Assembly: GCF_035930445.1 (NCBI RefSeq)
Contig: NZ_CP142394.1
Location: 2,203,501-2,267,500 of the forward strand
Direction of reading: 5' to 3'
DNA from: Sphingopyxis chilensis
GTDB lineage: Bacteria > Pseudomonadota > Alphaproteobacteria > Sphingomonadales > Sphingomonadaceae
Length of the DNA stretch: 64,000 bases
Shown: piece after piece, positions 3,284 to 47,359 of the stretch
Position numbering within the stretch: position 1 is the first letter of the stretch
How the letters are laid out: every line of letters starts with the position of its first letter
Program-made: the position numbers and the translations under genes
Notes under the pieces: generated by a model
What the model was told of the DNA's origin: nothing
The model's input: the letters and a program-made list of their open reading frames with translations, nothing else
The model's database searches: none

Positions 3284-3571
3284 ATGGACGATCAGCTGAG
3301 CCGTTACCGTCAGAGCATCGACAATATCGACGCGGCGCTCGTCTATATGCTCGCCGAGCGGTTCAAGGTGACCAAGGCGGTCGGCGAACTGAAGGCACGC
3401 GAAGGCCTGCCCCCCGCCGACCCCGGCCGCGAGGAGCGCCAGATCGAACGGCTGCGTGCGCTGGCCCGCGACGCCGACCTCGACCCCGATTTCACCGAGA
3501 AGTTCCTGCGCTTCATCATCGACGAGGTGATCCGCCATCACCAGCAGGCAAAGCGCGAGCAGAGCGCATGA
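3284..3571 (+). CDS. Chorismate mutase, AroQ type
   Basis: A 95-residue all-helical chorismate mutase, which converts chorismate to prephenate for phenylalanine and tyrosine synthesis. The sequence has the typical AroQ layout. It opens with a helix containing RQSIDNIDAALVYMLAERF, followed by KVTKAVGELKA and a C-terminal helix with RFIIDEVIRHHQ. The start at 3284 is supported by an AAGAGGAG Shine-Dalgarno sequence ending about 10 bases upstream. The stop overlaps the start of the GST gene (ATGA), so the two are probably translated together. It is a monofunctional enzyme with no fused dehydratase or dehydrogenase. A second chorismate mutase gene lies at 28347-28661. Confidence 0.88.
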   Translation: MDDQLSRYRQSIDNIDAALVYMLAERFKVTKAVGELKAREGLPPADPGREERQIERLRALARDADLDPDFTEKFLRFIIDEVIRHHQQAKREQSA

Positions 3572-4263: not shown

Positions 4264-4300
4264 CGTCGGGTTTCGACCTAAGGCTGCCCGATCTATCATC

Positions 4301-4372
4301 GTCATCCCGGACTTGATCCGGGATCCATGGACGCAACGGTAGCTGTTGACCCCGGATCAAGTCCGGGGTGAC
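4301..4372. repeat. Intergenic inverted repeat, 22-bp arms
   Basis: Bases 4301-4322 (starting gtcatcccggacttgatc) pair with 4351-4372 with one mismatch across a 28-base spacer. The element sits exactly between two converging genes. It may act as a bidirectional terminator or be a dispersed sphingomonad palindrome. Its outer core gtcatcccgg recurs in the hairpin at 34450-34485. Confidence 0.8.
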
Positions 4373-4420
4373 GAAGGTGAGTTACGCACCGTCCGCTCCC
4401 CACCCCAAAGCAACCGGCCC

Positions 4421-5827
4421 CTACCCCGCCGGTAGCCGCAGCCGGACGAGCAATCCGCCCAGATCCTCGCTCTCTTCCAGCACAATATTGCCACCGTAAA
4501 TCTCCGCGACGTCGCGCACGATCGCAAGTCCGAGTCCGGTGCCGGGCTTGCCGCTGTCGAGCCGCACGCCGCGGTCGAAGATTCGCGACCGGTCGGCGGG
4601 CGAGATGCCGGCGCCATCGTCCTCGACCAGTATCTCGGCCATATCGCCTGCGCGCCCGATCGTGACGAAGATGCTGCCGCCGCCATATTTCGCGGCATTT
4701 TCGAGCAGATTGCCGATGAGTTCGTCGAGGTCCTGCCGCTCGACGCGCGCGATGAGGTCCTTGTCACCCGCGGCATCGAGCCGCACGTCGGGGTAGAGCG
4801 CGGCGACCGCGCGCGAGACGCTTTCGACGCTGTCGCGCACCACCGCGCGCGCCTGCGCCGCGCCGCGTCGTCCGACGGCGCGCGCGCGCGCAAGGTGATG
4901 GTCGACCTGCCGCTGCATCGTCGCCGCCTCACGCCGCACCGTTTCGGCAAGCTCGCTATTCGAACTGGTTGCGCTGTTGACGAGGACGGTGAGCGGCGTC
5001 TTCAGCGCGTGGGCGAGGTTGCCTGCGTGAAGCCGCGCCTCCTCGGCCTGTTTCTCGTTATGCGCGAGCAGCGCGTTGAGTTCGTCGACCATGGGCTGCA
5101 CCTCAAGCGGCAGGGGCGCATCGACCCGGCGGTTCTGCCCGCCGCGCATCGCCGCGATCGCGCGGCGGATATGGCGCAGCGGCCAGAGGCCGTAGAAGGT
5201 CTGGAGCGCCGCGAGGATGATGAGGCCGAGCCCGAGCAGCGCGAGGCTGGGGATCAGCGTCTGCCGGACCGCGCTGACCTGTGCATCGAGCGCCTCGCGC
5301 GACTGCGCGATCTGGTACCGCCAGTTGGTCCTGCTTCCCGGCAGGATGACATTGCGTTCGAGCACCCGCAATTCCTCGTCGGGAAACTGGTTGCTGTCAT
5401 AGGTGTGGATCTGGTTATCAATATGCGGCGCCGGCGCCTTCAGCGTCCGTTCCCACAGCGAACGCGAGCGATAGGGTTCCTGGTTGCCGCCGCTGATCTG
5501 CCAATAGAGGCCGCTGTACGGTTCGAGGAAACGCTGGTCGCCGAGCGGCTCGATCAGCCGCACCTCCCCGTCGGGCCCGATCTCCGACGAGCGGATCATC
5601 GCGATCAGCACATATTCGAGGCCCGAATCGAAATTGCGCGTGATCGCGGTCTTCAGCACCTGATCGAGCGCAAAACCGCCGCCGATCAGCAGCACCGAAA
5701 TCCAGAGCGCCGCAATCGCGATCATGCGCCGCGCCAGCGAGCCCGTGATCCGTTTCGACGTGGCTAGGGGCTTGGTTGCCGCGTCCGGGCCGGTTTCGAC
5801 CGCCGGGGCGACGTCGGCCTTTGACAT
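4421..5827 (-). CDS. Sensor histidine kinase, PhoQ-like
   Basis: A 468-residue membrane sensor kinase. A transmembrane segment lies near residues 30-55 (RRMIAIAALWISVLLIGG). A periplasmic sensor region of about 130 residues follows, then a second membrane segment around 190-215 and a HAMP-like linker. The phosphoacceptor histidine is in the HALKTPLT motif. The N box (LLENAAKYGGG), G1 box (EDDGAGISP) and G2 box (GTGLGLAIV) are all intact, so it should be an active kinase. It begins three bases after the stop of the response regulator and is the last gene of a PepSY-regulator-kinase unit. The overall design resembles PhoQ, but the signal cannot be read from the sequence. Confidence 0.9.
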   Translation of the reverse strand: MSKADVAPAVETGPDAATKPLATSKRITGSLARRMIAIAALWISVLLIGGGFALDQVLKTAITRNFDSGLEYVLIAMIRSSEIGPDGEVRLIEPLGDQRFLEPYSGLYWQISGGNQEPYRSRSLWERTLKAPAPHIDNQIHTYDSNQFPDEELRVLERNVILPGSRTNWRYQIAQSREALDAQVSAVRQTLIPSLALLGLGLIILAALQTFYGLWPLRHIRRAIAAMRGGQNRRVDAPLPLEVQPMVDELNALLAHNEKQAEEARLHAGNLAHALKTPLTVLVNSATSSNSELAETVRREAATMQRQVDHHLARARAVGRRGAAQARAVVRDSVESVSRAVAALYPDVRLDAAGDKDLIARVERQDLDELIGNLLENAAKYGGGSIFVTIGRAGDMAEILVEDDGAGISPADRSRIFDRGVRLDSGKPGTGLGLAIVRDVAEIYGGNIVLEESEDLGGLLVRLRLPAG

Positions 5828-5830
5828 GGT

Positions 5831-6493
5831 CTATTGCGGATCGTCGAGTTGGTAGCCCAGCCCGCGGATCGTCGTGATGATATCGGCGCCAAGCTTTTTG
5901 CGAATGCGCGTGACGAACACCTCGATCGTATTCGAATCGCGGTCGAAATCCTGATCGTAGATATGCTCGATCAGTTCGGTGCGCGACACGACCTTGCCCT
6001 TGTGGTGGAGCAGATAGGACAGCAATTTATATTCCTGCGCGGTCAGCTTCACCGGCTCTCCGGCGAGCGTGACGCGGCCCGACCGCGTGTCGAGGCGAAC
6101 GTCGCCCGCGATCAACTCGCTCGACGCGTTGCCCGAAGCGCGGCGGATCAGCGCGCGCAGCCGCGCGATCAATTCCTCGGTCTGGAAGGGCTTTGCCAGA
6201 TAGTCGTCGGCACCCGCATCCAGCCCGGCCACCTTGTCGGACCAGCTGTCGCGCGCGGTCAGGACGAGCACCGGAAAATTCCGCTTTTCGCGGCGCCAGC
6301 GGTCGAGCACGGTCAGCCCGTCGATTTCGGGGAGGCCGAGATCGAGGATCGCCGCGTCATAGGTTTCGGTCGAACCCAGGAAATGCCCGTCCTCGCCATC
6401 GGTCGCGAGATCGACGGCATAACCCGCCCCCTCCAGCGTCGCCTTGAGCTGCGGGCCCAGCGTGGGTTCGTCCTCGACAATCAAAATCCGCAT
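5831..6493 (-). CDS. OmpR-family response regulator, PhoP-like
   Basis: A 220-residue two-component regulator. The receiver domain (residues 1-115) has the acidic pocket EDE near residue 7, the phosphorylation aspartate in ILDLGLPEIDG, the conserved threonine in VLTARD and the lysine in YLAKPF. The C-terminal winged-helix DNA-binding domain (about 125-218) includes LTAQEYKLLSYLL and ends with the usual TIRGLGYQL. The ATG at 6493 has an AGG-rich Shine-Dalgarno sequence about 7 bases upstream. It is paired with the kinase gene 3 bases downstream. The PepSY gene ends about 116 bases upstream on the same strand. Confidence 0.93.
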   Translation of the reverse strand: MRILIVEDEPTLGPQLKATLEGAGYAVDLATDGEDGHFLGSTETYDAAILDLGLPEIDGLTVLDRWRREKRNFPVLVLTARDSWSDKVAGLDAGADDYLAKPFQTEELIARLRALIRRASGNASSELIAGDVRLDTRSGRVTLAGEPVKLTAQEYKLLSYLLHHKGKVVSRTELIEHIYDQDFDRDSNTIEVFVTRIRKKLGADIITTIRGLGYQLDDPQ

Positions 6494-33344: not shown

Positions 33345-33426
33345 CGTTCGTGCTGAGCCTGTCGAAGCACCGTTCTTATTCGACGCCGAAAGAAAGAACG
33401 GCCCTTCGACAGGCTCAGGGCGAACG
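33345..33426. repeat. Intergenic inverted repeat with 33-bp arms
   Basis: Arms 33345-33377 (cgttcgtgctgagcctgtcg...) and 33394-33426 pair with only four mismatches around a 16-base loop. The core gagcctgtcgaag is a recurrent sphingomonad intergenic motif. It lies between two genes of the same direction and ends 34 bases before the aguA start, so it would be in the aguA leader if transcription comes from upstream. Confidence 0.85.
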
Positions 33427-33460
33427 GAGTTTGGTGAGCTTTAAAAAAGCGAGAAGTCAG

Positions 33461-34444
33461 ATGACGCTGAAAATGCCTGCTGAATGGGCGCCGCACGACG
33501 CCGTCTGGATTGGCTTCCCGCACCTCGAAGACGAGTGGGCGGGACAGATCGACGCGGCGCGTCGGGATGTCGCGGCCTTCGCCAACGCCGTCCACGACGG
33601 CGGGCGCGGGGAGAAGGTGCACCTTCTCGTTCGCGACCATGAAAATGCCGACATCGCTGAGGCACTCGTCGACGAGGGTGTGCAGTTGTTCGTGGCTCCC
33701 TTTGGCGATATCTGGCTGCGTGACACGGGCCCTATCATCGTCGGCACCGGCCCCGAACGCGAGGCGCGCAATTTCGACTTCAATTGGTGGGGCAACAAGT
33801 TCGTGATGCCCGGCGACCGGGAGATCGGGGCGATCCTGGCCGCGCACGCGGACCTGCCGACGCAGCATCTCGACTGGGTGCTCGAAGGCGGGGCGATCGA
33901 CGTCGATGGCACCGGCCTGTGCGTCACCACCGAGGAATGCCTGCTCAACCCCAACCGCAATCCGACGCTAACGCGCGAGGATATCGCGGTGCGGCTCCGC
34001 CAGTCGCTCGGCATCGACCGGCTGCTGTGGCTGGGCAAAGGGCTCGTCGGTGACCATACCGACGGCCATGTCGACAATCTCGCGCGCTTCGTCGGCGAGG
34101 GCCGCCTCGCGCTGCCCGTCGCGGCGGGGAAGGATGATCCCAACGCGCATATCTATGCCGACGCGCGCGCACGCACTGCGGCGTTCGGCGGCGTCGAAAT
34201 CGTCGACCTGCCCTCGCCCGGCCGCGTGGAAGTGGGCGGAGAGATCGCGGCGGCGAGCTATATGAACTTCTACATTGGCAACAGCGTTGTCGTCGTGCCG
34301 ACCTATGGCGTTCCCAACGATCAGGCAGCAGTCGACACGCTCGCCGCGCTCTTCCCCGATCGCCGCGCGGTCGGCGTGCCCGCGCGGGGGATCATCGTTG
34401 GCGGCGGGAGCTTCCACTGTTCCAGCCAGCAGCTTCCCAGTTGA
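33461..34444 (+). CDS. aguA: Agmatine deiminase
   Basis: A 327-residue guanidino-modifying enzyme that converts agmatine to N-carbamoylputrescine and ammonia. The N-terminal MPAEWAPHDAVWIGFP is characteristic. Active-site segments are DIWLRDTGP, LEGGAIDVDG and GDHTDGHVDN. The nucleophilic cysteine is Cys320 in GGSFHCSSQQ. The start at 33461 leaves the inverted repeat in the leader, whereas an upstream in-frame ATG would translate the repeat and is not credible. With aguB it forms a route from arginine-derived agmatine to putrescine. Confidence 0.93.
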   Translation: MTLKMPAEWAPHDAVWIGFPHLEDEWAGQIDAARRDVAAFANAVHDGGRGEKVHLLVRDHENADIAEALVDEGVQLFVAPFGDIWLRDTGPIIVGTGPEREARNFDFNWWGNKFVMPGDREIGAILAAHADLPTQHLDWVLEGGAIDVDGTGLCVTTEECLLNPNRNPTLTREDIAVRLRQSLGIDRLLWLGKGLVGDHTDGHVDNLARFVGEGRLALPVAAGKDDPNAHIYADARARTAAFGGVEIVDLPSPGRVEVGGEIAAASYMNFYIGNSVVVVPTYGVPNDQAAVDTLAALFPDRRAVGVPARGIIVGGGSFHCSSQQLPS

Positions 34445-34449
34445 TCTTC

Positions 34450-34485
34450 TTCACGTCATCCCGGCGAAGGCCGGGATGACGTGAA
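34450..34485. repeat. Perfect intergenic hairpin, 16-bp arms
   Basis: The bases ttcacgtcatcccggc (34450-34465) pair perfectly with 34470-34485 around a GAAG loop. It lies between aguA and aguB and carries the same gtcatcccgg core as the element at 4301-4372. It could stabilise the upstream mRNA or attenuate aguB. Confidence 0.85.
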
Positions 34486-34540
34486 CGGGTCGCGGGCTTT
34501 TGCTCTGGCAAGATGCGCGGGCTCGCTTATATCCAGCCCC

Positions 34541-35392
34541 ATGACCCGCACCATCACCGTCGCCGCGTTACAGCTTCCCCTGCCCGGCCCTGTCCAGCCC
34601 AACATCGAGGCCGTGTCAGCGCTCGTCGAAGAAGCCGCGGGACAAGGCGCGCAAATCATCCTGCCGCCCGAACTCTTCGAAGGCCCCTATTTCTGCCAGG
34701 TCGAGGACGAGGAACTGTTCGCGACCGCCCGCCCGACGACCGAGCATCCGAGCGTCGTCGCGATGCAGGCGCTCGCCATCAAACTGAAGGTCGCGATTCC
34801 GACGAGCTTCTTCGAGAAGGACGGGCCGCATTATTACAACACGCTCGCGATGATCGGCCCCGACGGGGCGATCATGGGGACGTATCGCAAAAGCCACATT
34901 CCCGACGGGCCCGGATATGAAGAGAAATATTATTTCCGCCCCGGCAACACGGGCTTCAAGGTCTGGGACGTGTTCGGCACGCGCATCGGCGTCGGCGTCT
35001 GCTGGGACCAATGGTATCCCGAATGCGCGCGCGCGATGGCGCTGATGGGGGCCGAACTGCTTTTCTATCCAACCGCGATCGGCAGCGAACCCTATGATGC
35101 CGACCTCGACACCAGCCGCATGTGGCGCCGCGCGATGCAGGGGCACAGCGTGTCGAACTGCATGCCGGTGATCGCGGCGAACCGCATCGGGACCGAAGGC
35201 GACGCCAATTTCTATGGCCACAGCTTCATCACCGACGAATGGGGCGACATGACGCAGGCGTTCGGCGCGAGCGAGACGGGTGTGCTCACCCAGACGATCG
35301 ATCTCGACCGCGCCGCAAAACACCGCGCCGGCATGGGCTTCTTCCGCGACCGCCGGCCGCAGCTTTACGGGCGACTGGTCGAGGACATCTGA
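34541..35392 (+). CDS. aguB: N-carbamoylputrescine amidase
   Basis: A 283-residue nitrilase-superfamily amidase that releases putrescine, CO2 and ammonia from N-carbamoylputrescine. The catalytic triad is Glu44 (LPPELFEG), Lys117 (TYRKSHIPD) and Cys154 (GVCWDQWYPE). The CWDQW pentad is typical of this subfamily. The position directly after aguA supports the assignment. The ATG at 34541 begins MTRTITVAALQL; a start 20 codons earlier would reach into the hairpin. Confidence 0.93.
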   Translation: MTRTITVAALQLPLPGPVQPNIEAVSALVEEAAGQGAQIILPPELFEGPYFCQVEDEELFATARPTTEHPSVVAMQALAIKLKVAIPTSFFEKDGPHYYNTLAMIGPDGAIMGTYRKSHIPDGPGYEEKYYFRPGNTGFKVWDVFGTRIGVGVCWDQWYPECARAMALMGAELLFYPTAIGSEPYDADLDTSRMWRRAMQGHSVSNCMPVIAANRIGTEGDANFYGHSFITDEWGDMTQAFGASETGVLTQTIDLDRAAKHRAGMGFFRDRRPQLYGRLVEDI

Positions 35393-36934: not shown

Positions 36935-37687
36935 TCAATAACGGCCGGAAAGCAGCGCGCCGGCGCCCGGAACCCGCGTCGAAAGCCCAAGCCGCGCGAG
37001 CATCTGGTGCGCCGTGCAAATCGCCGCCGATATCACGGGTTTGCCGATGGCGTCCTCGACCCTCTGCACCGCCGGCAACGAAGGCATCTGCACGCACGCC
37101 GAGAGAACGAGCGCGTCGATCCCGGAAAGGTCGAGCCGCTTGTAATGGTCGAGCAAATTCGCGGGATCCTGCGCCGCCACCTCGAGGTTGTCGGGAATTT
37201 CGAGCGCGAGCGAGTCGGCGACCTCGACCCCCTCCTTCGCGATATAGCCGACGACCATCTCGGTCAGCGGCTTCATATAGGGCGCGACGAGCGCGATACG
37301 CTTCGCGTGCAACGTCTTGAGCCCCTCGACCAGCGCACCCGCGCTGGTGACGACCGGCGCGGCGTGGCCGTTATCGACCGTGCGCTGGTGCAGCCGCGCC
37401 TCCGATACCCGGTGGTAGCCCTCGCCCATGCTCATGATCGCGACGAGGCAGGCATAGCCGAGCACATCGACCGCAGCGTCGGACAGTTCGAGCGCGCAGC
37501 GGTCGGAGTCCGCGTCCATCGCCGCGAGTTCCTCTTTCGTGACCTGCTTCATCCGCATCCGCGACGAATGGAAGGTGAAGCGTTCGGGCGCGATGGCCTC
37601 GCGCGCGCGGAGCAGCGCCGGAATTTCGGTTTCCATCGTGACGTTCGAACTGGGCACGATCTGCCCGATACGGATGGGTCGGGTCAT
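36935..37687 (-). CDS. maiA: Maleate cis-trans isomerase
   Basis: A 250-residue Asp/Glu racemase-superfamily enzyme converting maleate to fumarate without cofactor. The segment IGQIVPSSNVTMETEIPALL and the stretch FTFHSSRMRMKQV match characterised maleate isomerases closely, as far as I can recall their sequences. The two catalytic cysteines are Cys80 (LGYACLVA) and Cys198 (LSACVQMPS). The C-terminus PGAGALLSG also fits. It is the last gene of the eight-gene kyn operon, 10 bases after the FAH-family gene. Its presence shows that the pathway ends in maleate, as in the gentisate (maleylpyruvate hydrolase branch) or maleamate pathways. Confidence 0.92.
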   Translation of the reverse strand: MTRPIRIGQIVPSSNVTMETEIPALLRAREAIAPERFTFHSSRMRMKQVTKEELAAMDADSDRCALELSDAAVDVLGYACLVAIMSMGEGYHRVSEARLHQRTVDNGHAAPVVTSAGALVEGLKTLHAKRIALVAPYMKPLTEMVVGYIAKEGVEVADSLALEIPDNLEVAAQDPANLLDHYKRLDLSGIDALVLSACVQMPSLPAVQRVEDAIGKPVISAAICTAHQMLARLGLSTRVPGAGALLSGRY

Positions 37688-37697
37688 CGTGGGCGCC

Positions 37698-38606
37698 TTA
37701 GACCGCGACGATCGGGTTGCGGAGCGTGCCGATGCCCTCGACGGTGCATTCGACGACGTCACCCGGCCACATGAACTCCTGCGGATCGCGCCCCGCGCCG
37801 ACCCCGGCTGGGGTTCCGGTCGCGATAATGTCGCCAGGTTCGAGCGTCATCACGCTCGAAATATCGGAGATCAACTGATTGATATTGAACAGCATGAAGC
37901 GCGTGTTGCTGTTCTGCTTTTCCACCCCGTTCACATGGGTGAGGATATTGAGATTATGCGGGTCGCCGATTTCGTCGGCGGTGACGATGCACGGCCCCAT
38001 CGGCGCAAAGCTGTCCTGGCCCTTCGACACGATCCATTGCCCGGCGCGGCGGCAGTCGCGCGCTGAGACGTCGTTGATCACCGTATAGCCGAACACATGG
38101 TCCAGCGCGTCGGCTTCGGCGACGTCACGCGCCGTGCTGCCGATGATCACTGCCAGCTCGGTTTCCCAGTCGAGTTGCTGCGTCACCTTCGCATTGTGCC
38201 GGATCGGATCGTTCCACGCGACGACTGCGGTCGGCGGCTTCGAGAAGATCACCGGCTGCTGCGGCAGCTCGTTCGACGTGTCGAGACTGCGCGCAGATTC
38301 AGCAACATGCTCAGTATAGTTCAGACCGATTCCGAAGATATTCTTGCGCGGGCGAGGGATCGGTGCGAGCAGGGTGACATTTCCCTCGGGCAGCGAGGTG
38401 CCGATGAGGTCGGCGGTCGTCGCCGACGCGACGGCTTCCTGCAGGAAGCGCAGCGCGACGGGCCCCAGGTCGATGAAATCGAGCATCGTCGCGGGCAAAT
38501 CCTGCCCGATCGCGTCGCCGAAATATTCGACGTCGATCACGAGGCCGCCATGGAGAACGCCGAGCCGCGGCTCGGTGTCCACCGTGCGATATGTCACGAA
38601 GCGCAT
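37698..38606 (-). CDS. Fumarylacetoacetate hydrolase-family protein (maleylpyruvate/maleamylpyruvate hydrolase candidate)
   Basis: A 302-residue metal-dependent C-C hydrolase. Metal ligands are Glu148 and Glu150 (LDWETELAVIIG) and Asp179 (VINDVSARD). Upstream, GIGLNYTEHVAES is the usual catalytic His region of the family. The gene is 22 bases after the dioxygenase gene with a CAGGAC ribosome-binding site for the ATG at 38606. By context it should split the ring-opened product to pyruvate plus a C4 acid. In the gentisate route that acid is maleate; in the route proposed here it would be maleamate. The family is broad and the substrate is inference. Confidence 0.85.
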   Translation of the reverse strand: MRFVTYRTVDTEPRLGVLHGGLVIDVEYFGDAIGQDLPATMLDFIDLGPVALRFLQEAVASATTADLIGTSLPEGNVTLLAPIPRPRKNIFGIGLNYTEHVAESARSLDTSNELPQQPVIFSKPPTAVVAWNDPIRHNAKVTQQLDWETELAVIIGSTARDVAEADALDHVFGYTVINDVSARDCRRAGQWIVSKGQDSFAPMGPCIVTADEIGDPHNLNILTHVNGVEKQNSNTRFMLFNINQLISDISSVMTLEPGDIIATGTPAGVGAGRDPQEFMWPGDVVECTVEGIGTLRNPIVAV

Positions 38607-38628
38607 AAATAGTCCTGTCTGCTGCAAG

Positions 38629-39762
38629 TCAGGCGGGCTGGTGGCCGCCATGGTCGGGATAGGCTTCCTCGATCCGGACGCCGAGCGCCTCCATCACGGG
38701 GAAATCGTTGAACGAGAAAAGGAAGGCCTCTTCGGACGCGTCGAGATTGACATGCTCGTGCCACACCCACGCGGGAACGCAGAAAATGTCGTGCGTGCCC
38801 CAGTCGAAGCGCTGGCCGCCGATGATCGAATAGCCGCGGCCGCCCGCGACATTATAGACGACATTGCCGGTGTGGCGGTGCGCAAGCCCGCGAAAACCGG
38901 GCTTCAGCATCTGCATATGCGCGCCCATCGTCTGCAGCGCCCAACCGCCGGTCAGCGGGTTCGAGTAACGCACCATATGCCCGTCGAAGGGCGACCCGTC
39001 GGACACTTTCGCGAGGTTCCACAAGGCGTCACGCGTCGCGTCCCAGCGATAGACCATCACCGGCGAATAGGGCTTTTCCCATGCACCGATGCCTTCGGGC
39101 CGCAGCGCCCCCCCGCCATAGGTCAGTGGCAGGTCGTCAGTCGGAAACGCCGCCGCCTGTGCGGGCTGGTCATAAACCGCGTAGAAATTGGTCTCGAGGC
39201 TGTTCATCAGCGGAATGTCGAGCCCGTCCTGCCAGATCGACACTTCGCCGTCAGCAACGACGCCATGGTCGTGCCAGCAGCCGCCCGGCGTCAGCACATA
39301 ATCATTGGCGCCGAGCGTGATGTGATGGCCATCGACGACGGTATAGGCGCCCTTCCCCTCCATGATGAAGCGGTGCGCCGAGGCGGTGTGGCGGTGCGCG
39401 GGGGTGATCTCGCCGGGACGCATCGCCTGCATGCCACTGAACAGCCAGCCGCATACGGCGACATTCTCGCGCCCCGCGTCGCTGTCGTTGAGCAGGGTCA
39501 CGACGCGGCGCCCCGCTTCCTCGGGCTTCACCAGATCGAGCGCGCGGAGGCACATGTCGCGCATCTCGGAATAGCGCCAGAGCGTCGGGCGATAGCGCGT
39601 TTCGGGCTCCCACGGCTCGATCGCATTGGCGCGCTTCCAGAAGGCGCCGGCATTGCGCGCGGCAAGCTCTTGATAAAAGGCTTCGAGTTCAGGGGTATCG
39701 GTGACGCGCGACCGTCCGAGCACATCGTCGCGCGGGTCGATCATCGTGCTATTGCCTGTCAT
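38629..39762 (-). CDS. Gentisate 1,2-dioxygenase-family bicupin (ring-cleavage enzyme)
   Basis: A 377-residue double-cupin Fe(II) dioxygenase. The N-terminal cupin carries His123 and His125 (TPAHRHTASAH) with a third ligand probably at His164 (CWHDHG). The C-terminal cupin has HRHTGNVVYN and PAWVWHEH. The family includes gentisate, salicylate and aminosalicylate/hydroxyanthranilate ring-cleaving enzymes, which cut between the carboxyl-bearing carbon and the neighbouring OH- or NH2-bearing carbon. The start overlaps the nitrilase-family stop (ATGA). With kynU three genes upstream supplying an anthranilate, a 5-hydroxyanthranilate substrate is attractive. The exact substrate cannot be read from sequence. 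Confidence 0.88.
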   Translation of the reverse strand: MTGNSTMIDPRDDVLGRSRVTDTPELEAFYQELAARNAGAFWKRANAIEPWEPETRYRPTLWRYSEMRDMCLRALDLVKPEEAGRRVVTLLNDSDAGRENVAVCGWLFSGMQAMRPGEITPAHRHTASAHRFIMEGKGAYTVVDGHHITLGANDYVLTPGGCWHDHGVVADGEVSIWQDGLDIPLMNSLETNFYAVYDQPAQAAAFPTDDLPLTYGGGALRPEGIGAWEKPYSPVMVYRWDATRDALWNLAKVSDGSPFDGHMVRYSNPLTGGWALQTMGAHMQMLKPGFRGLAHRHTGNVVYNVAGGRGYSIIGGQRFDWGTHDIFCVPAWVWHEHVNLDASEEAFLFSFNDFPVMEALGVRIEEAYPDHGGHQPA

Positions 39763-40775
39763 GGCGGCGTCTCCTCGTCGGCATCGGCGGGCTGGGGCTC
39801 GTCGATGAACAGGGCCGACGCGCGGGGCGTCCGGTCGACCGTCAGGTTGAAGATGTCGAAGCGATTATAGCCGCCGATGATGTCGTGCATCAGCTTGGGC
39901 CTTATGCATTCGCCCAGGTCGATGTCGGCATAGACGATGCCCTCGACGTCGATCAGCGCGTCGCCGACCAGATTGCCGTGCGGATCGATCACGCCCGACC
40001 AGGCGCTGTTCGGGCGCGAGAGCAGATCGCGGTTCTGCGGGCGGTCGGCGCTCATCGCGGCGACGATCTCCTCGCTCACCGTCGAGCAGGCGACGATCGT
40101 GAAGACCTTGCCCTCGAAACTGTGCGCGGTCGCGCGGATCTTGATCGCCTCGGCCATATTGTACGACGCGGGCGCAACGGGGAGCGCGATATAATTGGCG
40201 ACATGGACGAGCTCGCCCTGTGACAGCAGCGCGAAGCGCGCGAGCGTATTGGTATTCTCGCCGCATGCAAGCGTGCCGAGCGGCCCGACCGGCGTGTCAT
40301 AGACGCGGATCGAGCTGCCGTCGCCGCCCGCCCAGGTCAGCTTCTCGGCCCAGGTCGGCACCAGCTTGCGGTGGCGTCCGAGCAGGCTACCGTCGGCGCC
40401 GATAATGAGGTTCGCGTTGTAGAGCGTGCCGACGCTGACCGGGTCGCGTTCGTTGATCCCGATCACGACGGTGCAGCCATGGTCGCGCGCGGCGGCGCAC
40501 AGCGCGGCAACCTCGGGCCCGTCGATCAGGAGCGACGCGCGGTAGAGGCGCTCGTGCCATTCGGCGCCCTCGATCGGCGTCATCAGCCAGTTCCAGTAGG
40601 GATAGGCGGCGACGAACACCTCCGGAAAGGCGACCAGCTGCGCGCCATTGACGGCCGCCTCGGCGATCAGCGCGCACGCCTTGTCGATCGTCGCCGCCGG
40701 GTCGAGGAAGACCGGCGCGGCCTGCACCGCGGCGACGCGCGACCTGGGCAGGAGGGGCGCCGACACGTCGCTCAT
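39759..40775 (-). CDS. Nitrilase-superfamily C-N hydrolase (nitrilase branch)
   Basis: A 338-residue enzyme with the catalytic triad Glu52 (FPEVFVAAYPYW), Lys137 (RHRKLVPT) and Cys171 (LACGENTNTLAR). The CGEN context is that of true nitrilases rather than of aliphatic amidases, and the length also fits nitrilases. Members of the family hydrolyse nitriles and, in some cases, amides. The start at 40775 overlaps the kynU stop, and the gene overlaps the dioxygenase start, so it is embedded in the kyn operon. In the proposed pathway it would remove ammonia from maleamate. The alternative is indole-3-acetonitrile or another nitrile. Confidence 0.85.
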   Translation of the reverse strand: MSDVSAPLLPRSRVAAVQAAPVFLDPAATIDKACALIAEAAVNGAQLVAFPEVFVAAYPYWNWLMTPIEGAEWHERLYRASLLIDGPEVAALCAAARDHGCTVVIGINERDPVSVGTLYNANLIIGADGSLLGRHRKLVPTWAEKLTWAGGDGSSIRVYDTPVGPLGTLACGENTNTLARFALLSQGELVHVANYIALPVAPASYNMAEAIKIRATAHSFEGKVFTIVACSTVSEEIVAAMSADRPQNRDLLSRPNSAWSGVIDPHGNLVGDALIDVEGIVYADIDLGECIRPKLMHDIIGGYNRFDIFNLTVDRTPRASALFIDEPQPADADEETPP

Positions 40776-42013
40776 GTCACCGCCGCCCGCTGGTGATATT
40801 GCGGTTTGTCCCATGCGCGCGTCGCGCAGACTGTTTCGAGCCGATCGACCGTTTCGACGATGTCGCGATAACGCAGGTAAAGCGGCGTCAGTCCGAAGCG
40901 CAAAATGTCGGGCGCGCGGAAGTCGGCGATGACGTCATATTCCTTGAGCGCCTGCACGATCTGATAGCCCTGCGGGTGCGCATAGGCGACCTGACTGCCG
41001 CGCGTCGCATGGTCCTCCGGGCTGATCAGTTCGAAACCATAGGCTTCGCACAGAGGCCGCATCTGCTCGATGAACAGGTCGCCGAGTGCGAGCGACTTGC
41101 GGCGGATTTCGGCCATATCGGCTTCGAGCATCAGGTCGACGCCGACCTCGAGCGCCGACAGGCCGAGCACCGGCGGCGTCCCGCACTGGAAGCGCTCGAT
41201 CCCGGCGGCAGGATCATAATCCTCCTCGAAAGCGAAGGGCCGCGCGTGGCCGAACCAGCCCGACAGCACCGGCGTCGCCGAATGGTGCCGCGCCGCCGCG
41301 AACAGATAGGCCGGCGCGCCGGGCCCGCCGTTGAGGAATTTATAGCCGCAGCCAATAGCAAAATCGGCGTTTGCGCCGTTGAGGTCGACCGGGATCGCGC
41401 CCGCGCTGTGGCTCAGGTCCCAGACGACGAGCGCGCCAGCATCGTGCGCGGCGCGCGTGATCGCCGCCATGTCGCGAACGCGGCCCGACTTGTAATGCAC
41501 CTGCGTCAGCAGCAGCACCGCGACATCGTCGTTCAGCGCCTCGACGATATCGTCGGGCGCGACGGTCGCCGCCTTGACGCGTCCGCCCGAAAAGGCCTCG
41601 ATGCCCTGCATCATATAGACGTCGGTTGGGAAATTGGTCGCTTCGGACAGGATCACCGTCCGTTCACGCCGCAACGAAAGCGCGGCCGTCAACGCCTTGA
41701 AGATATTGACGGAAGTCGAATCACTCGCGACGATCTCGCCGGGGTTGGCGCCGATCAGCCGGCCGATCTTGTCGCCGATGCGCCGCGGCGCGGTCGACCA
41801 TAAGGCTTCGAGCCACGAGGTAATCAGCCCCTCGCCCCATTCTTCGCCGATCACCCCCGCCAGCCGGTCGCTCGTCGCTTTGGGCAGCGCGCCGAGCGAA
41901 TTGCCGTCGAGATAGATCATCCCCTTGCGCAGATGGAAACGCTCGCGAAAATGGGCGAGCGGATCCGAAGCATCGAGCGCCTGCACATCGGTGACGGTCA
42001 TCGTGTCGGTCAT
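40772..42013 (-). CDS. kynU: Kynureninase
   Basis: A 413-residue PLP enzyme that cleaves kynurenine to anthranilate and alanine. The N-terminal IYLDGNSLGALP is diagnostic. The cofactor aspartate lies in VWDLSHSAGAIP (Asp199) and the PLP lysine is Lys225 in GCGYKFLNGGPG. The length is standard. Its start overlaps the kynB stop and its stop overlaps the nitrilase-family start, both as ATGA, so translation is coupled. Kynureninases usually tolerate ring hydroxylation, so 5-hydroxykynurenine is a plausible substrate. Confidence 0.95.
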   Translation of the reverse strand: MTDTMTVTDVQALDASDPLAHFRERFHLRKGMIYLDGNSLGALPKATSDRLAGVIGEEWGEGLITSWLEALWSTAPRRIGDKIGRLIGANPGEIVASDSTSVNIFKALTAALSLRRERTVILSEATNFPTDVYMMQGIEAFSGGRVKAATVAPDDIVEALNDDVAVLLLTQVHYKSGRVRDMAAITRAAHDAGALVVWDLSHSAGAIPVDLNGANADFAIGCGYKFLNGGPGAPAYLFAAARHHSATPVLSGWFGHARPFAFEEDYDPAAGIERFQCGTPPVLGLSALEVGVDLMLEADMAEIRRKSLALGDLFIEQMRPLCEAYGFELISPEDHATRGSQVAYAHPQGYQIVQALKEYDVIADFRAPDILRFGLTPLYLRYRDIVETVDRLETVCATRAWDKPQYHQRAAVT

Positions 42014-42639
42014 GCGATTTCCCTCAGGATGGCGCGCACCGGGCTGGCATCGGCGCCGACGATGCGCAGCGGCAGCGCAACAAGTTCGTACCGGCCGGAC
42101 GGCACGTCATCGAGCACCAGCCCCTCCAATATCCGCATGTCGGCCGCCTTCACCGCCTGATGCGCGTCGAGCGTCTTCGACTGTTCGGGGTCGAGCGACG
42201 CCGCATCGGTGCCGATCAGGCGCACGCCCATTGCGCCGAGCCTCGCGATCACATCGTTGGCGATGGCGGTGAAATCGCTATCCCATCGATCGTGCGGAAA
42301 ATGTTCGTAGGTCCGCAGCAGCACACGCTCGGCGCCTTCGATCGCGGTCCAGTCCACATCCGCAATCTCGACCCGCCCGCGCGCATGGCGCATGTCGAGC
42401 AGCACGCACGGCCCGATATAGGCACCCAGATCGCAGTCGGCCGACGACGCGCCGTCATTGGCATAGTGCAGCGGCGCATCGCCATGCGTCCCGGCGTGCA
42501 GCGGCGTGAACATGCCCCCGACGTTGACCGGGCAGCCTTCGCCGATCACCGCATGGCTGTGGAGCGCGAAGGCCGGCTCGCCCGGCCACACCGGCACAGC
42601 GGCGTGGAGCGGCTGCGAAATGTCCCAGATCCGGCTCAT
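42010..42639 (-). CDS. kynB: Kynurenine formamidase (cyclase family)
   Basis: A 209-residue bacterial formamidase that removes formate from N-formylkynurenine. The metal-binding signature HxGTHxDxPxH is present (HAGTHGDAPLH, His48 to His58). The opening IWDISQPLHAAVPVWPG and the end segment LPLRIVGADASPVRAIL are typical of KynB. The start at 42639 overlaps the kynA stop. A longer upstream frame is out of context with the coupled operon. Confidence 0.94.
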   Translation of the reverse strand: MSRIWDISQPLHAAVPVWPGEPAFALHSHAVIGEGCPVNVGGMFTPLHAGTHGDAPLHYANDGASSADCDLGAYIGPCVLLDMRHARGRVEIADVDWTAIEGAERVLLRTYEHFPHDRWDSDFTAIANDVIARLGAMGVRLIGTDAASLDPEQSKTLDAHQAVKAADMRILEGLVLDDVPSGRYELVALPLRIVGADASPVRAILREIA

Positions 42640-43541
42640 TTGCGCTCCCCCGCCGCATAGTCCCCACCCTCGCGCGGCGCGACCATTTCGGTGCGCATCG
42701 ACCAGAGTTCGGGAAAGAAACTGAGGCTCAGCGCCTTGACGAGATAATTGACCCCCGACGAGCCGCCGGTCCCCGGCTTGTGCCCGATCACGCGCGCGAC
42801 GGTCTTCATGTGCTTGAAGCGCCATTCCTGGAAATAATATTCGAGCGCGGTGACCTTTTCGGCGAGCGTGTAGAGATCCCAGTGCCGGTCAGGGTCGGTG
42901 TAGATCGCCAGCCACGCCTTTTCGACCGCCTCGGACGCTTCATAGGGCTTGGTCCAGTCGCGCTCCAGATGATCGGCGGGAATGGCGAACCCGCGCCGCG
43001 CGAGGAGCCGCAGCAGTTCGTCATAGAGCGACGGCGCCTCGAACGTCGCGCGCAGCCGCTCCGTGGCCTCTGGGTCGTCCTTATGGACGATCATCATATC
43101 CTCGCGCTTGTTGCCGAGCAGATATTCAAGCTCGCGATATTGCTGCGACTGGAACCCCGACGCGCGACGCAGGAAGCCGCGGAAAGTCAGGAAATCATGC
43201 GGCGTCAGCGTCGCGAGCACCTCCCAGCTGTGGATCATGTGCCGCTGGATCGTCGCGATGCGGTCGAGCCCCTTGCCTGCAATTTCCAGCCGGTCGGCCT
43301 GGATCGCGTCAAGGACCAGCCGCGCCTCATGCAGCACCAGCTTGATCCACAGCTCCATCGTCTGGTGCATGATGATGAACAGCATCTCGTCGGGCTTGTC
43401 CGACACCGGCACCTGTGCCGACAAGAGCTGCGCGGTCTGGAGATGCCGAGCGTAAGTGAGCCCATTGTCCCACTGGATCGTCTCGCCGTCGATCTCGGTC
43501 TCGAAGATGTCGGTGCCGCCGTCGCGCGTCTGCCTGATCAT
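42636..43541 (-). CDS. kynA: Tryptophan 2,3-dioxygenase
   Basis: A 301-residue haem enzyme that opens the indole ring of tryptophan to N-formylkynurenine. The active-site histidine is His59 in IIMHQTMELW, and the axial haem ligand is His244 in RFKHMKTVAR. The substrate loop GTGGSSGVNYL is intact. The start overlaps the stop of the hydroxylase gene by four bases. Whether it accepts 5-hydroxytryptophan is an open question central to the proposed pathway; TDOs vary in tolerance to 5-substitution. Confidence 0.95.
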   Translation of the reverse strand: MIRQTRDGGTDIFETEIDGETIQWDNGLTYARHLQTAQLLSAQVPVSDKPDEMLFIIMHQTMELWIKLVLHEARLVLDAIQADRLEIAGKGLDRIATIQRHMIHSWEVLATLTPHDFLTFRGFLRRASGFQSQQYRELEYLLGNKREDMMIVHKDDPEATERLRATFEAPSLYDELLRLLARRGFAIPADHLERDWTKPYEASEAVEKAWLAIYTDPDRHWDLYTLAEKVTALEYYFQEWRFKHMKTVARVIGHKPGTGGSSGVNYLVKALSLSFFPELWSMRTEMVAPREGGDYAAGERK

Positions 43542-44410
43542 GGGAATGCCTCTCCGCTTGCCGGACGGGCCGGCAGGCGTCCTTCATAGGCGACATCGCC
43601 CGGACAGGCATCCCCCGGTTCAAGCGCGGGCTCGTTCGCTATCTTGCGATAGACGCTCGCAAAGTCGGTTTCCTCGGTCGCGCGCAGCAATTGCTCGAAC
43701 CCCGCGACGACGAAATAGGTCTGCTGCAACTGGTCGAAATGATATCTGGTCCGCATAACCCGCTCGATATCGAGCCAGAGGCGCCGCGGTTCGGGCGCGG
43801 TCAGCGCCGACAGGGTTTCGGCAAAGCTCGACATCAGCCCGCCACCAAAAGCGCGAAGCTCGCCATCCTCGACGACGAGGCCGAACTCGACCGTGTAAAG
43901 CCACAGCCGCCCGAGATAGTCCGATGCCCCAAGCTTTTCGGCGCGCAATCCCGCCTCGCCATAAGCGACCAGAAAGTCCGAAAAGGCCGGATCGGTGAGC
44001 ATCGGGACATGGCCGAATATGTCGTGAAACATATCGGGCTCTTCGCTGTACGCGATCTGCTCGGGCGGGCGGACGAAATTGGCGGCGGGAAAGCGCCGGT
44101 TCGCCAGATGCCGGAAAAAGGGCTCGTTCGGAATCCAGCCCGGCACCGCCACGACCTCCCACCCCGACACGGGTTTGAGCAGCGCGTTGAGTTCGGTGAA
44201 GTCGGGAACCCCCGGTTTCAGCTTGCGAAGAATGTCGAGCCCGCCGAGGAACGACCGGCACGCATAACCGTCGAGCACCGCCGACTGCCGATCGAACAGC
44301 GACCGCCAGGTCTCATGTTGTTCGGCCGTGAAGGCACGCCAATTTTGCGGCATCGTCCAATCGGCCCCGACACCTTCGGGCGGTGCGTCGAAAATATGTG
44401 TCGCGGCCAT
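43538..44410 (-). CDS. phhA: Pterin-dependent aromatic amino acid hydroxylase (annotated type: phenylalanine 4-hydroxylase)
   Basis: A 290-residue tetrahydrobiopterin-dependent iron hydroxylase lacking any regulatory domain, as usual in bacteria. Iron ligands are His129 and His134 (FHDIFGHVP) and Glu175 (YTVEFG). The residue four before the iron glutamate is Leu171. As I recall, phenylalanine hydroxylases have Trp there (human Trp326) and tryptophan hydroxylases have Phe (human TPH1 Phe313). The change enlarges the pocket and, with the tryptophan-degrading genes that follow, makes a tryptophan 5-hydroxylase function possible. It is first in the operon, with GGAGAGAG about 4 bases before the start. 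No pterin dehydratase gene is nearby. Confidence 0.88.
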   Translation of the reverse strand: MAATHIFDAPPEGVGADWTMPQNWRAFTAEQHETWRSLFDRQSAVLDGYACRSFLGGLDILRKLKPGVPDFTELNALLKPVSGWEVVAVPGWIPNEPFFRHLANRRFPAANFVRPPEQIAYSEEPDMFHDIFGHVPMLTDPAFSDFLVAYGEAGLRAEKLGASDYLGRLWLYTVEFGLVVEDGELRAFGGGLMSSFAETLSALTAPEPRRLWLDIERVMRTRYHFDQLQQTYFVVAGFEQLLRATEETDFASVYRKIANEPALEPGDACPGDVAYEGRLPARPASGEAFP

Positions 44411-44597: not shown

Positions 44598-45074
44598 ATG
44601 GACAAGCTCGACTGGAAGATCGCCGCCGCGCTCGAGAGCGACGGCCGCCAATCCTACGCCGACCTTGGCGACCGGGTCGGTCTGTCGAAGTCGCCCTGCT
44701 GGTCGCGCGTGAAAAATCTTGAGGAAAGCGGCGTGATCGACGGTTATGCCGCGCGCCTCGATCCGATCGCGATCGGGCTTGCCGTGCAAAGTTTTGTCGA
44801 GGTGCAGATCCGTTTCGACGCGCATATCGAGTTCGAGGCCGCGGTTCTCGCGCATCCGGCCGTGGTCGAGTGCCACACCACCGCGGGCGAGAGCGACTAT
44901 CTGCTCAAGATTTTTGCGCGATCGGCCGATCATCTCGACGAGCTGCTCCGCCATAATTTGTCGAAGCTGCCCGGCGTCCAGCGGTTGAAAACCGTCGTGT
45001 GCCTCAAGACGATCAAACGACACGGGCCGCTTGCCGAATGGGCCCGCACCACCGAGGCGCGCGCGCCGCGCTAG
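44598..45074 (+). CDS. Lrp/AsnC-family transcriptional regulator
   Basis: A 158-residue regulator. The N-terminal helix-turn-helix includes SYADLGDRVGLSKSPCWSRVK and the C-terminal RAM ligand-binding domain follows (VECHTTAGESDYLLKIF). The arrangement, divergent from an aromatic amino acid catabolic operon, matches known local Lrp activators that sense the substrate amino acid, such as phenylalanine or tryptophan. Its stop codon and that of the converging TonB receptor gene share the palindrome CTAG at 45071-45074. Confidence 0.9.
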   Translation: MDKLDWKIAAALESDGRQSYADLGDRVGLSKSPCWSRVKNLEESGVIDGYAARLDPIAIGLAVQSFVEVQIRFDAHIEFEAAVLAHPAVVECHTTAGESDYLLKIFARSADHLDELLRHNLSKLPGVQRLKTVVCLKTIKRHGPLAEWARTTEARAPR

Positions 45075-47296
45075 AAACGTTTGCGGAGCGACAACTGGAC
45101 CGTACGGCCGAGCGGGTCGACTTCATAGCGTTCATAGCCCGCCGGCACGGTGCCGTCGCTCAGCACGACGCGCCGATAGCTGTCGAACAGGTTCCGGATA
45201 TCGAGCGCAATATTCAGGTCCGCGAGCCACGCGGGCTTCTCCTGCATTCGCAGCAAGCGCTCTGGCTCGGCGAACAGGCGAAGGTTCAGCGCCGTCACGG
45301 CACGGTGGCGATAGTCCTGCTGGCCGTCGACGCGGAGGCGGAAGGGGCTTTGCCAGGTCCCGTCGAGCGTCAACCCCGCCCCGGCGCGACCGGCGACGAG
45401 CTGGAACGTGAGGCTATGCCGCGATTGCGCGGTGTCGCCGCGCAGCCGGTCGATGGCGGGGACACCGGGGCGGGTCAGCAATTCGCTGCGGAGCGTCCAT
45501 CCATGGTTGATCGACAACGTCATCTGCCAGGGGCTGGCTTGGGGCGGAGCGCCGACTTCTGCGCCAGCCCGGCCCCCGGTGGAAAAGGAGACCACAAGGC
45601 CGCTGTCGAGCCGTTCGCTGATGTCGCGCGCGATCCGGATCGGGCGCGCATCGACCGAGACGAGCCGGCCAGCAGCATCGCGCACGACGCGCTCCGGAAA
45701 CGCATCCTCGACTGCGGGCGTCAGCGTCGGGAATAGTCCGGCGCCGCCGGTCGCCGATTGTCGCTGATATTGCGATGTGATCGAGATTTGCGGATCGGCG
45801 AAGGGCGTCAGGCTGGCGCGCAGCGAATAGCTGCGCTGCCGCCCGCGGCCGAGGTCGGGATTGCCCCCGGTTATCCATCGCGGTTCGGCGATCTCCTGCC
45901 GGCGATAGTCATAGATGCGCCTGACCTCCTCGACATAGGGGCCGCCCAATTGATCGGCGCTCGGTATCAGCTGCGCAAAGCCCGCCGTGGCGGTGAGCTG
46001 AAGCAGGGGGAAAGGCGTCCAGTTCAATCCGAAATCGAACCGTTCCTGCAGCGGCGAGCCCGAAGCCTCGCTCACGCCGCCGGCGATATCGACCGACAGG
46101 TCGCCGAGCGCCGAAAAACGGTCGGAAACCGATGAGGAGATCGGGACGCCGAGCGAGAGCCGCGCGTCCCATTGCCGGCGCCGGAATTCGAACCCGGCAG
46201 GAATATCCCCCTCCCCCGACCCGCGACTTTGGGTCCAGTCGCGGGCCGCGCCGAACGAAATGTTCGATGTTACCATGCCGGCTGGAAGCGTCAGGACCGG
46301 CCGGTTGAGATTGACCTGGGCCGACAACCCCTCGCTGCGCGAACGCGTCCGGTCGATCCGGATTTCGGGCCCGGCGGCCACGCGTTCGAGCGCGTTGGTG
46401 GACCAGGAGCGCGTGTAGCGGGCGATGATATTCGATTGCCAGCCGGCGAGCGGGCCGCCCAAAAGCGCCGACAATCCGAGGCTTGTCGAATCCTGATCGC
46501 CGCGAAGCGGATCCCCGCCACCGCCAGCGGGCACGGGCGCCGGGCCGAGCAACTGGCGCGTGTCGCGCCGGGCGACATCGATACCGAATGTGCCGCTGAA
46601 CCGCCCCAGCGGCCGCGTCAGGCCAAGATTCATCGTCAGCCTGTCCGAAGCGGGCAGCAGCGTGCGGCTGGCATCGGAGGCGTCGAGGTCGCCTGCACCG
46701 CTGCGCGCGCTCTTGAGCAGGTGATTGTCGTGCGAGGCGTCGACGCGCGCGCTCCAGCGGGATTTGCCGTCGATCACGAAGCGGCCGAGCGACAGCTGCC
46801 CGCTTTCGCGCCCGCCCGCCGTCGCGATTTGCACGCCGGCTTCGCCCTGCCACGACGCGAAGCTCTTTTTGAGCACGAGGTTCACCACCCGCTGCCCGGG
46901 CGGATAGCCATATCGCTCCGCCGCCTCCGAGCGCAGGATGGCGATCCGCGCCAGTGCTTCAGGCGGGAAACCGTTGATTCCGGTTGCGCCATCGGCGCGC
47001 TCGCCGTTGATGAGGATGATCGGGCGTTCGTCCGGCCGCCCGGTGAGCGGGGCGATTAGCGAGACAAGGTCGCCGATCGAATTCGCGCCATAAGCGTCGA
47101 TTTCGGCCTCGCCGAGTTCGGTTTCGGACTCGACCAGCGCGGCGCCCCACTGGGCGGTGACCACGATCTCGTCGATTTCGGGCGATAGGGGCGAGGAGGA
47201 TTCGACCGCGGGAGCCTGAGCCTGGGCCGGGACGTCCAGCAGGGTGAGCAGCACGCCAATCGCGCCGGCAAATCCCCCGTCTATCCCCGCATTCAT
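45071..47296 (-). CDS. TonB-dependent receptor-like outer membrane protein
   Basis: A 741-residue outer membrane protein. A signal peptide (FAGAIGVLLTLLDVPAQAQA) precedes a region with EIDEIVVTAQW, a TonB-box-like segment. A short plug domain (about 70-160, with ERPIILINGERAD and QRVVNLVLKK) follows, then a long beta barrel ending in phenylalanine (LSLRKRF). The plug is small and divergent from classical receptors, and the ligand is unknown. The start at 47296 yields the signal peptide, while the upstream in-frame ATG does not. A large perfect hairpin separates it from the secreted protein gene upstream on the same strand. Confidence 0.8.
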   Translation of the reverse strand: MNAGIDGGFAGAIGVLLTLLDVPAQAQAPAVESSSPLSPEIDEIVVTAQWGAALVESETELGEAEIDAYGANSIGDLVSLIAPLTGRPDERPIILINGERADGATGINGFPPEALARIAILRSEAAERYGYPPGQRVVNLVLKKSFASWQGEAGVQIATAGGRESGQLSLGRFVIDGKSRWSARVDASHDNHLLKSARSGAGDLDASDASRTLLPASDRLTMNLGLTRPLGRFSGTFGIDVARRDTRQLLGPAPVPAGGGGDPLRGDQDSTSLGLSALLGGPLAGWQSNIIARYTRSWSTNALERVAAGPEIRIDRTRSRSEGLSAQVNLNRPVLTLPAGMVTSNISFGAARDWTQSRGSGEGDIPAGFEFRRRQWDARLSLGVPISSSVSDRFSALGDLSVDIAGGVSEASGSPLQERFDFGLNWTPFPLLQLTATAGFAQLIPSADQLGGPYVEEVRRIYDYRRQEIAEPRWITGGNPDLGRGRQRSYSLRASLTPFADPQISITSQYQRQSATGGAGLFPTLTPAVEDAFPERVVRDAAGRLVSVDARPIRIARDISERLDSGLVVSFSTGGRAGAEVGAPPQASPWQMTLSINHGWTLRSELLTRPGVPAIDRLRGDTAQSRHSLTFQLVAGRAGAGLTLDGTWQSPFRLRVDGQQDYRHRAVTALNLRLFAEPERLLRMQEKPAWLADLNIALDIRNLFDSYRRVVLSDGTVPAGYERYEVDPLGRTVQLSLRKRF

Positions 47297-47359
47297 CGTT
47301 CCGTCACCCGTCCTGCAGCCTCGAAACCCCGCCGCGCCCGTCCCTTCCCCCCGCAAGCC

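Follow-up and report, generated by a model that had tools for sequence, protein, structure and literature searches.

An eight-gene operon in Sphingopyxis chilensis proposed to degrade tryptophan through 5-hydroxyanthranilate

What is degraded by an operon that joins upper kynurenine pathway genes to a ring-cleavage module and begins with an aromatic amino acid hydroxylase? Such an operon occupies positions 36935 to 44410 of a 64,000-nucleotide stretch of Sphingopyxis chilensis DNA (the window; NZ_CP142394.1, positions 2,203,501 to 2,267,500), which is part of a complete 3.95-Mb genome (G000). Its genes, all on the minus strand, encode a pterin-dependent aromatic amino acid hydroxylase (43538-44410), the tryptophan 2,3-dioxygenase KynA (42636-43541), the kynurenine formamidase (arylformamidase) KynB (42010-42639), the kynureninase KynU (40772-42013), a nitrilase-superfamily C-N hydrolase (39759-40775), a bicupin ring-cleaving dioxygenase (38629-39762), an FAH-family C-C hydrolase (37698-38606), and a maleate cis-trans isomerase (36935-37687). 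Gene content and operon structure, both observed directly, agree with an earlier sequence-only reading of the window: the eight genes stand in the order it gave, start with ATG and contain no internal stops, five junctions are ATGA overlaps, and the last two are gaps of 22 and 10 bases. Mechanically called open reading frames of kynB and the nitrilase, FAH, and isomerase genes begin further upstream; the starts chosen in that reading are the likely ones. The enzyme families it had named were recovered in NCBIfam, Pfam, and PDB (in PDB for all genes but kynB).

We propose that the operon would accomplish the complete aerobic degradation of tryptophan. The hydroxylase, changed in its substrate pocket, would convert tryptophan to 5-hydroxytryptophan, from which KynA and KynB would yield 5-hydroxykynurenine plus formate, and KynU 5-hydroxyanthranilate plus alanine. 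The bicupin enzyme would then cleave 5-hydroxyanthranilate between C1 and C2, the amino-bearing carbon becoming an amide; the FAH-family enzyme would hydrolyze the beta-diketone to pyruvate and maleamate, the nitrilase-superfamily enzyme, acting like an omega-amidase, would split maleamate into maleate and ammonia, and the isomerase would convert maleate to fumarate. As had been calculated before, the carbon balance of this route closes (11 = 1 + 3 + 3 + 4). We infer the substrates of all steps in this way, and also the order in which the FAH-family hydrolase and the amidase act. That the bicupin enzyme might cleave anthranilate lacking the hydroxyl group was ruled out on chemistry, because the FAH and maleate steps require an oxygen at C5. 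A route through 5-hydroxyanthranilate, with hydroxylation in either order, is quite likely, and the stated order from tryptophan over 5-hydroxytryptophan to 5-hydroxyanthranilate is reasonably probable on sequence grounds. The 5-hydroxyanthranilate route fits nearly all of the sequence evidence; in its favor are the Leu180 (L180) pocket, the separate ordinary hydroxylase copy, the lack of another anthranilate route among the families looked for in the complete genome, and the second context of the module. The enzyme kinds are known; new is their combination, headed by a pocket-changed hydroxylase.

The operon hydroxylase carries a PF00351 domain (135 bits). Aligned to the Chromobacterium violaceum enzyme, it has Trp instead of Leu101 and Leu instead of Trp180 (W101/L180), and it thus lacks the pocket signature of bacterial phenylalanine 4-monooxygenase, L101 plus W180. 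H138, H143, and E184 (Chromobacterium numbering), which we take to be the iron ligands, are retained. The second phenylalanine 4-monooxygenase-type model tried, NF008877, was narrowly missed (245.9 versus 247 bits). The model of animal-type tryptophan 5-monooxygenase, TIGR01270, was missed as well (99.3 bits; cut-off, 705.5), a miss with which the enzyme can still work as a tryptophan 5-monooxygenase. In passages of PMC4029321, W180 is held to govern substrate affinity in the Chromobacterium enzyme, and an L101Y-W180F variant is reported with a 5.2-fold increase in kcat on tryptophan.

Pocket residues and their conservation were likewise observed directly. L180 was present in 30 of 126 distinct members of the hydroxylase family (a set that includes a class-wide sample of 29, at least one of which repeats a sequence of the family), and all 30 came from operons of this kind. 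For 28 of them the operon was assigned from fetched DNA; the window's own enzyme and that of genome G122, where the bicupin gene lies ∼4 kb from the L180 hydroxylase, were placed separately. Position 101 of the 30 was W (20 enzymes), V (8), or F (2). The other 96 had W180, 95 of them together with L101 and one being partial, and the module was absent near all 96 in the fetched DNA, which mostly reached ∼1.5 kb to each side. Every hydroxylase of the class-wide sample was L101/W180 (29/29). Among the nearest 120 proteins listed from a large database, 118 had W/L at positions 101/180, one had W/F, and one had a gap at 180. In a quick tree of 98 rows, built after masking positions 101, 179, and 180, all rows with L180 grouped in one clade resulting from one change (SH-aLRT [Shimodaira-Hasegawa-like approximate likelihood ratio test] support, 98).

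Wherever a second hydroxylase copy was fetched from an L180 genome (G000, G127, G149, G209, and G210), this copy was L101/W180 (5/5). In G000 it is located at G000:C1:3129608-3130420 (within locus L033), with an AsnC-type regulator gene ∼4 kb away. HmgA (homogentisate dioxygenase) was not found in the G000 genome; a control genome was matched. Genomes G205 and G207 hold the module elsewhere in the genome and a W180 copy, without an L180 copy. At locus L283 (genome G021; 862-5866), which lacks the module, a partial W180 hydroxylase match lies ∼2 kb from kynABU, so proximity to kyn genes alone is not coupled to the pocket change.

The kynurenine upper pathway set (KynA, KynB, and KynU) is complete in the operon. 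KynA exceeds the cut-off of PF03301 (206 bits), stays under that of TIGR03036 (357.8 versus 390.7 bits), and has 2nox as PDB relative. KynB scores 241.3 bits with TIGR03035 (cut-off, 223.05), and KynU scores 305 bits with TIGR01814 (cut-off, 246.4) and 430.6 bits with PDB entry 1qz9. The operon KynA has His27, Phe113, and Ala123 in place of the Tyr, Tyr, and Ser of ordinary KynA (X. campestris numbering). This pocket was considered as evidence for 5-hydroxytryptophan and rejected: the same signature occurs in hydroxylase-free module loci and in two module-free kynABU loci (L275 and L276). It is a clade trait and, because it is shared by loci without the hydroxylase or the module, decides nothing about the substrate.

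In the lower part, the nitrilase-family protein (PF00795, 135 bits) aligns with nitrilases and would be an amidase whose substrate is maleamate or the amide formed by ring cleavage. It carries CGENTN in place of a CWE-type motif; among 72 nitrilase rows, 64 share CGENTN, 7 carry CWENYM instead, and no motif was found in the remaining one. TIGR04048, the model of true nitrilases of the Nit6803 family, was missed (224.4 bits; cut-off, 502.6). Enzymes of the nitrilase superfamily hydrolyze amides and nitriles at their C-N bonds and are not known to act on aryl amines, and omega-amidase-like members exist among them. In a plain gentisate pathway, such a C-N hydrolase would have no obvious task. 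The bicupin protein, the candidate 5-hydroxyanthranilate 1,2-dioxygenase, belongs to the gentisate 1,2-dioxygenase fold family, and its nearest PDB relative is 3bu7 (521.6 bits). H123, H125, and H164, presumably its iron-binding ligands, are invariant in 21 aligned sequences. It fell below the cut-offs of both TIGR02272 (gentisate 1,2-dioxygenase; 291.3 versus 442.1 bits) and NF049978 (5-aminosalicylate 1,2-dioxygenase MabB; 254.1 versus 650 bits). The FAH-family hydrolase (PF01557, 239 bits), which would release pyruvate from the ring-cleavage product, has as PDB relatives 1gtt, 8sky, and the maleylpyruvate hydrolase 6jvv. The isomerase is closest to the maleate cis-trans isomerase 4fq7 (347.9 bits), and both cysteines of 4fq7, which we take to be the functional ones, are aligned; none of its profile matches was to a curated maleate isomerase model.

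Bicupin similarity was scanned, the best 80 of 570 relatives were kept, and gene content was judged in fetched DNA. The genome survey that the sequence-only reading had called for returned all eight genes in 24 of the 80 loci, many of them close relatives of one another, and the order and strand of the window in 19, so the arrangement is not due to chance. The nitrilase (>50% identity) accompanied the bicupin in 57 loci, 56 of which also had the FAH gene and 49 the isomerase gene. These 57 included 26 loci with kyn genes and hydroxylase, 9 with kyn genes only (locus L101 being counted here solely by a 37% kynA match), and 15 with the indolepyruvate-oxidoreductase-like pair iorA/iorB or with ACMR (2-aminobenzoyl-CoA monooxygenase/reductase). 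The other 23 of the 80 loci lacked this nitrilase; some were cut by contig ends, and six had a different C-N hydrolase (∼35 to 36%). Within the family, 12 of 199 genomes had a bicupin match of at least 53% identity, 4 of those 12 one of at least 75%, and hydroxylase, kynU, and bicupin genes were close together in five (G000, G122, G127, G138, and G149). The G000 genome itself has one bicupin match and one kynureninase match. In Sphingopyxis sp. JAI108 (L082), the gene set is 99 to 100% identical, with the bicupin match split into two pieces.

The genes for nitrilase, bicupin, FAH-family hydrolase, and maleate isomerase are a portable module, whose second genomic context was observed directly. 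Eight plasmid regions were viewed, and in six of them (Ruegeria pomeroyi, Leisingera, Shinella, Sagittula, Sulfitobacter, and Caballeronia) the four genes were together without kyn genes; iorA/iorB-like genes plus a thioesterase gene were present in all of these except Leisingera. The Cupriavidus taiwanensis region had ACMR, bicupin, and FAH genes without nitrilase or isomerase, and the Aminobacter region had bicupin, FAH, and another C-N hydrolase without isomerase. In loci from Caballeronia and from Vibrio/Grimontia, an ACMR-like flavoenzyme is encoded beside the module. Two of them, L121 (Caballeronia) and L243 (Vibrio penaeicida), combine iorA, iorB, thioesterase, ACMR-like enzyme, and the full module, with an isatin-hydrolase-like gene close by. 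For a Shinella (L117) "cyclase family protein", the best match is isatin hydrolase A (5nna, 336.5 bits). Across the 15 ior/ACMR loci, an isatin-hydrolase-like gene was found in 6 and a thioesterase gene in 13.

Read as a series, these genes would lead to the same compound. Isatin hydrolase produces isatinate, which the ior-type 2-oxoacid oxidoreductase might convert to 2-aminobenzoyl-CoA. Under NADH limitation, ACMR is reported to form 5-hydroxyanthraniloyl-CoA (passages of PMC3534580, citing Langkau 1990), from which the thioesterase would liberate 5-hydroxyanthranilate. Such a series keeps the nitrogen on the ring, so that the C-N hydrolase has work to do; the gene set of the second context suggests 5-hydroxyanthranilate. 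At L243:1426-14725 (as also in L121, L117, and L114), the isatin-hydrolase-like enzyme, iorA/iorB, the thioesterase, in some loci the ACMR-like enzyme, and the bicupin module together look like a route from isatin to 5-hydroxyanthranilate.

The bicupin genes themselves connect the two contexts. In a quick tree of 90 rows, the bicupins of two hydroxylase-kyn operons (L111 and L162) fell, apart from the other 26, into a fully supported group of seven, which they share with sequences from Novosphingobium, Brevundimonas, Azospirillum, and Niveispirillum, mostly of ior/ACMR loci. The two operons seem to have taken over their bicupin from the ior/ACMR context, and such a takeover would fit a substrate common to both. 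Furthermore, over the 367 residues of 3bu7 compared, the sequence is that of SPO_RS20405, the Ruegeria pomeroyi bicupin encoded inside the module (L114:8992-10116). There is about an even chance that the whole picture holds: a dedicated bacterial tryptophan 5-hydroxylase that evolved once from phenylalanine hydroxylase, a portable 5-hydroxyanthranilate module that other Proteobacteria supply from isatin and anthraniloyl-CoA, 3BU7 as a 5-hydroxyanthranilate 1,2-dioxygenase, and the module serving as lower pathway where indole and auxin breakdown passes through isatin.

Several observations weigh against the route through 5-hydroxytryptophan and 5-hydroxyanthranilate. The operon hydroxylase passes TIGR01267, the model of phenylalanine 4-monooxygenase (282.8 bits; cut-off, 264.75). 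Since L180 has a single evolutionary origin, the 30/30 association does not amount to 30 independent cases, and the contrast with the W180 enzymes is limited, most of the 96 having been viewed with the short flanks given above. The unspecific KynA signature gives no sign that this enzyme would accept 5-hydroxytryptophan. In the second context, no more than 4 of the 15 ior/ACMR loci (L069, L071, L073, and L087) had ACMR (>40%) within their fetched DNA, and the NCBIfam name of the ACMR-like enzyme, bifunctional salicylyl-CoA 5-hydroxylase/oxidoreductase, would fit gentisate. In the fetched DNA around the closest neighbors of the swapped bicupins, maleate isomerase is missing and the C-N hydrolase is of another kind (∼36%); 7 of the 57 nitrilase-bicupin loci show neither feeding set in theirs. 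By the title of its publication, Ruegeria pomeroyi 3BU7 is a gentisate 1,2-dioxygenase, an activity that would not exclude 5-hydroxyanthranilate as its natural substrate. Finally, neither a hydroxylase match nor a full-length ACMR was found in Ruegeria sp. ANG-R (G208), which has the module and iorA/iorB, or in G201, which has kynA, kynU, and the module; in neither is the origin of the oxygen at C5 accounted for.

Where the hydroxyl group enters is the point at which the closest alternative departs. If KynA and KynB acted first, the hydroxylase could place the hydroxyl group on C5 of kynurenine, in para position to the amine, and KynU would again deliver 5-hydroxyanthranilate. W180L says merely that phenylalanine is probably not the substrate, and the hydroxylase-free loci, in which tryptophan is the likely substrate, share the pocket signature of the operon KynA, both of which suit this order. 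The engineered precedent at position 180 (PMC4029321, in the passages cited above) concerns tryptophan, however, and the operon starts with the hydroxylase gene both here and in the 19 loci of identical order, which is weak evidence on order. We consider hydroxylation of kynurenine unlikely. Less probable still is a gentisate route, in which deamination of 5-hydroxyanthranilate (or of some other precursor) comes first, the bicupin cleaves gentisate, and the nitrilase has some other task. The published title of 3BU7 and the name of the second-context ACMR-like enzyme speak for it, as does the conversion of 5-hydroxyanthranilate to gentisate reported for Nocardia opaca (Cain 1968, as cited in passages of PMC4539516). 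Nevertheless, the bicupin is 150 bits short of TIGR02272, and the operon has no separate deaminase. Enzymes of the nitrilase superfamily are not known to attack aryl amines, and the nitrilase adjoins the bicupin in the 57 loci counted above, albeit absent from the other 23.

We regard as equally improbable a reading in which the first gene encodes a co-regulated phenylalanine hydroxylase and KynU yields plain anthranilate, which an unlinked enzyme would hydroxylate at C5 before it enters the module. Besides the TIGR01267 score, relatives with kynA, kynU, and the module that lack a hydroxylase match are in its favor. No such match was found in the genomes behind L057 to L061, L063, L068, and L070, several of which are small assemblies. 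Among the first seven of these genomes, three (G199, G200, and G206) encode a full-length ACMR homologue at another site, close to iorA and to a gene resembling that of isatin hydrolase; in these three, hydroxylation at C5 may follow the KynU step. The genome studied here, on the other hand, already has an ordinary hydroxylase copy, L180 was confined to these operons in the set collected, and no candidate among the anthranilate hydroxylases looked for was recovered. AntA reached at best 87.2 bits in the complete genome (cut-off, 671.9), with no control genome over the cut-off either, and full-length ACMR was not found, only matches of 29 to 32% to the C-terminal part of the query. This agrees with the earlier statement that no anthranilate hydroxylase is needed, as regards AntA and full-length ACMR; no search was made for kynurenine 3-monooxygenase or for further types of anthranilate hydroxylase. 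3-Hydroxyanthranilate dioxygenase (3-HAO; PF06052) had no match in the genome, nor in any control genome, so that this negative carries no weight.

Near kynA of hydroxylase-free loci, sulfatase genes were observed in L057, L060, L063, and L068, two of which (L057 and L060) also have genes for SNF-type symporters. That these loci serve to take up a 5-hydroxy compound in sulfated form was considered as the main explanation and dropped, because 3 of the 7 genomes of that group have the full-length ACMR homologue elsewhere; it may apply to genomes lacking ACMR.

With the kynurenine-anthranilate pathway, the operon has the KynA, KynB, and KynU families in common; in place of the AntABC and catechol pathway, it has the ring-cleavage module, and a gene of the phenylalanine hydroxylase family comes first. 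The gentisate pathway shares the bicupin dioxygenase and the FAH-family hydrolase, whereas the C-N hydrolase and maleate isomerase are additions of the operon, whose proposed substrate has an amino group at C2. Conversion of maleamate over maleate to fumarate is common to the lower nicotine/nicotinate pathway, which has a maleamate amidase and a maleate isomerase; its amidase NicF is of the isochorismatase family, in contrast to the nitrilase-superfamily enzyme of the operon. Nearest among the described cases, Nocardia opaca also degrades anthranilate through 5-hydroxyanthranilate, which there arises from anthranilate and is deaminated to gentisate before cleavage (Cain 1968, in the same passages of PMC4539516), whereas in the operon it would come from 5-hydroxykynurenine and the ring would be cleaved with the nitrogen on. 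The 2-aminobenzoyl-CoA pathway of Azoarcus evansii has oxygenation of the anthranilate ring at C5 in common but follows a CoA thioester route with a lower part of the beta-oxidation type (passages of PMC4539516 and PMC3534580). A 5-nitrosalicylate dioxygenase is reported as inactive on 5-hydroxyanthranilate (in part of PMC10306065). The sequence-only reading had named no described pathway with this combination, and none was found in the portion of the open-access PubMed Central literature covered.

If the proposal is true, bacteria would own a physiological tryptophan 5-hydroxylase, which would be useful for 5-hydroxytryptophan production, and a further route of complete tryptophan degradation. 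A four-gene set of many Proteobacteria would gain a substrate, as would a dioxygenase whose structure is known under another name. Papers on auxin degradation stop, in the sections concerned, at anthranilic acid (PMC9613470 and PMC12633357); for what happens beyond anthraniloyl-CoA when isatin, and perhaps auxin, is degraded, the module would offer a testable proposal.

Divergent from the operon lies an Lrp/AsnC-family gene (44598-45074, plus strand; PF01037 and PF13412 over cut-off), which is the probable regulator of the eight genes; the same regulator adjoins the operon in many relatives too. Beside it, positions 45071 to 47356 encode a 761-residue protein with only a subthreshold match to the TonB Plug domain (17.1 bits; cut-off, 23.9), possibly an outer-membrane receptor. 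On the other side of the operon, at 33350 to 35392, an agmatine deiminase-family gene (PF04371) adjoins a gene for N-carbamoylputrescine amidase (TIGR03381 over cut-off).

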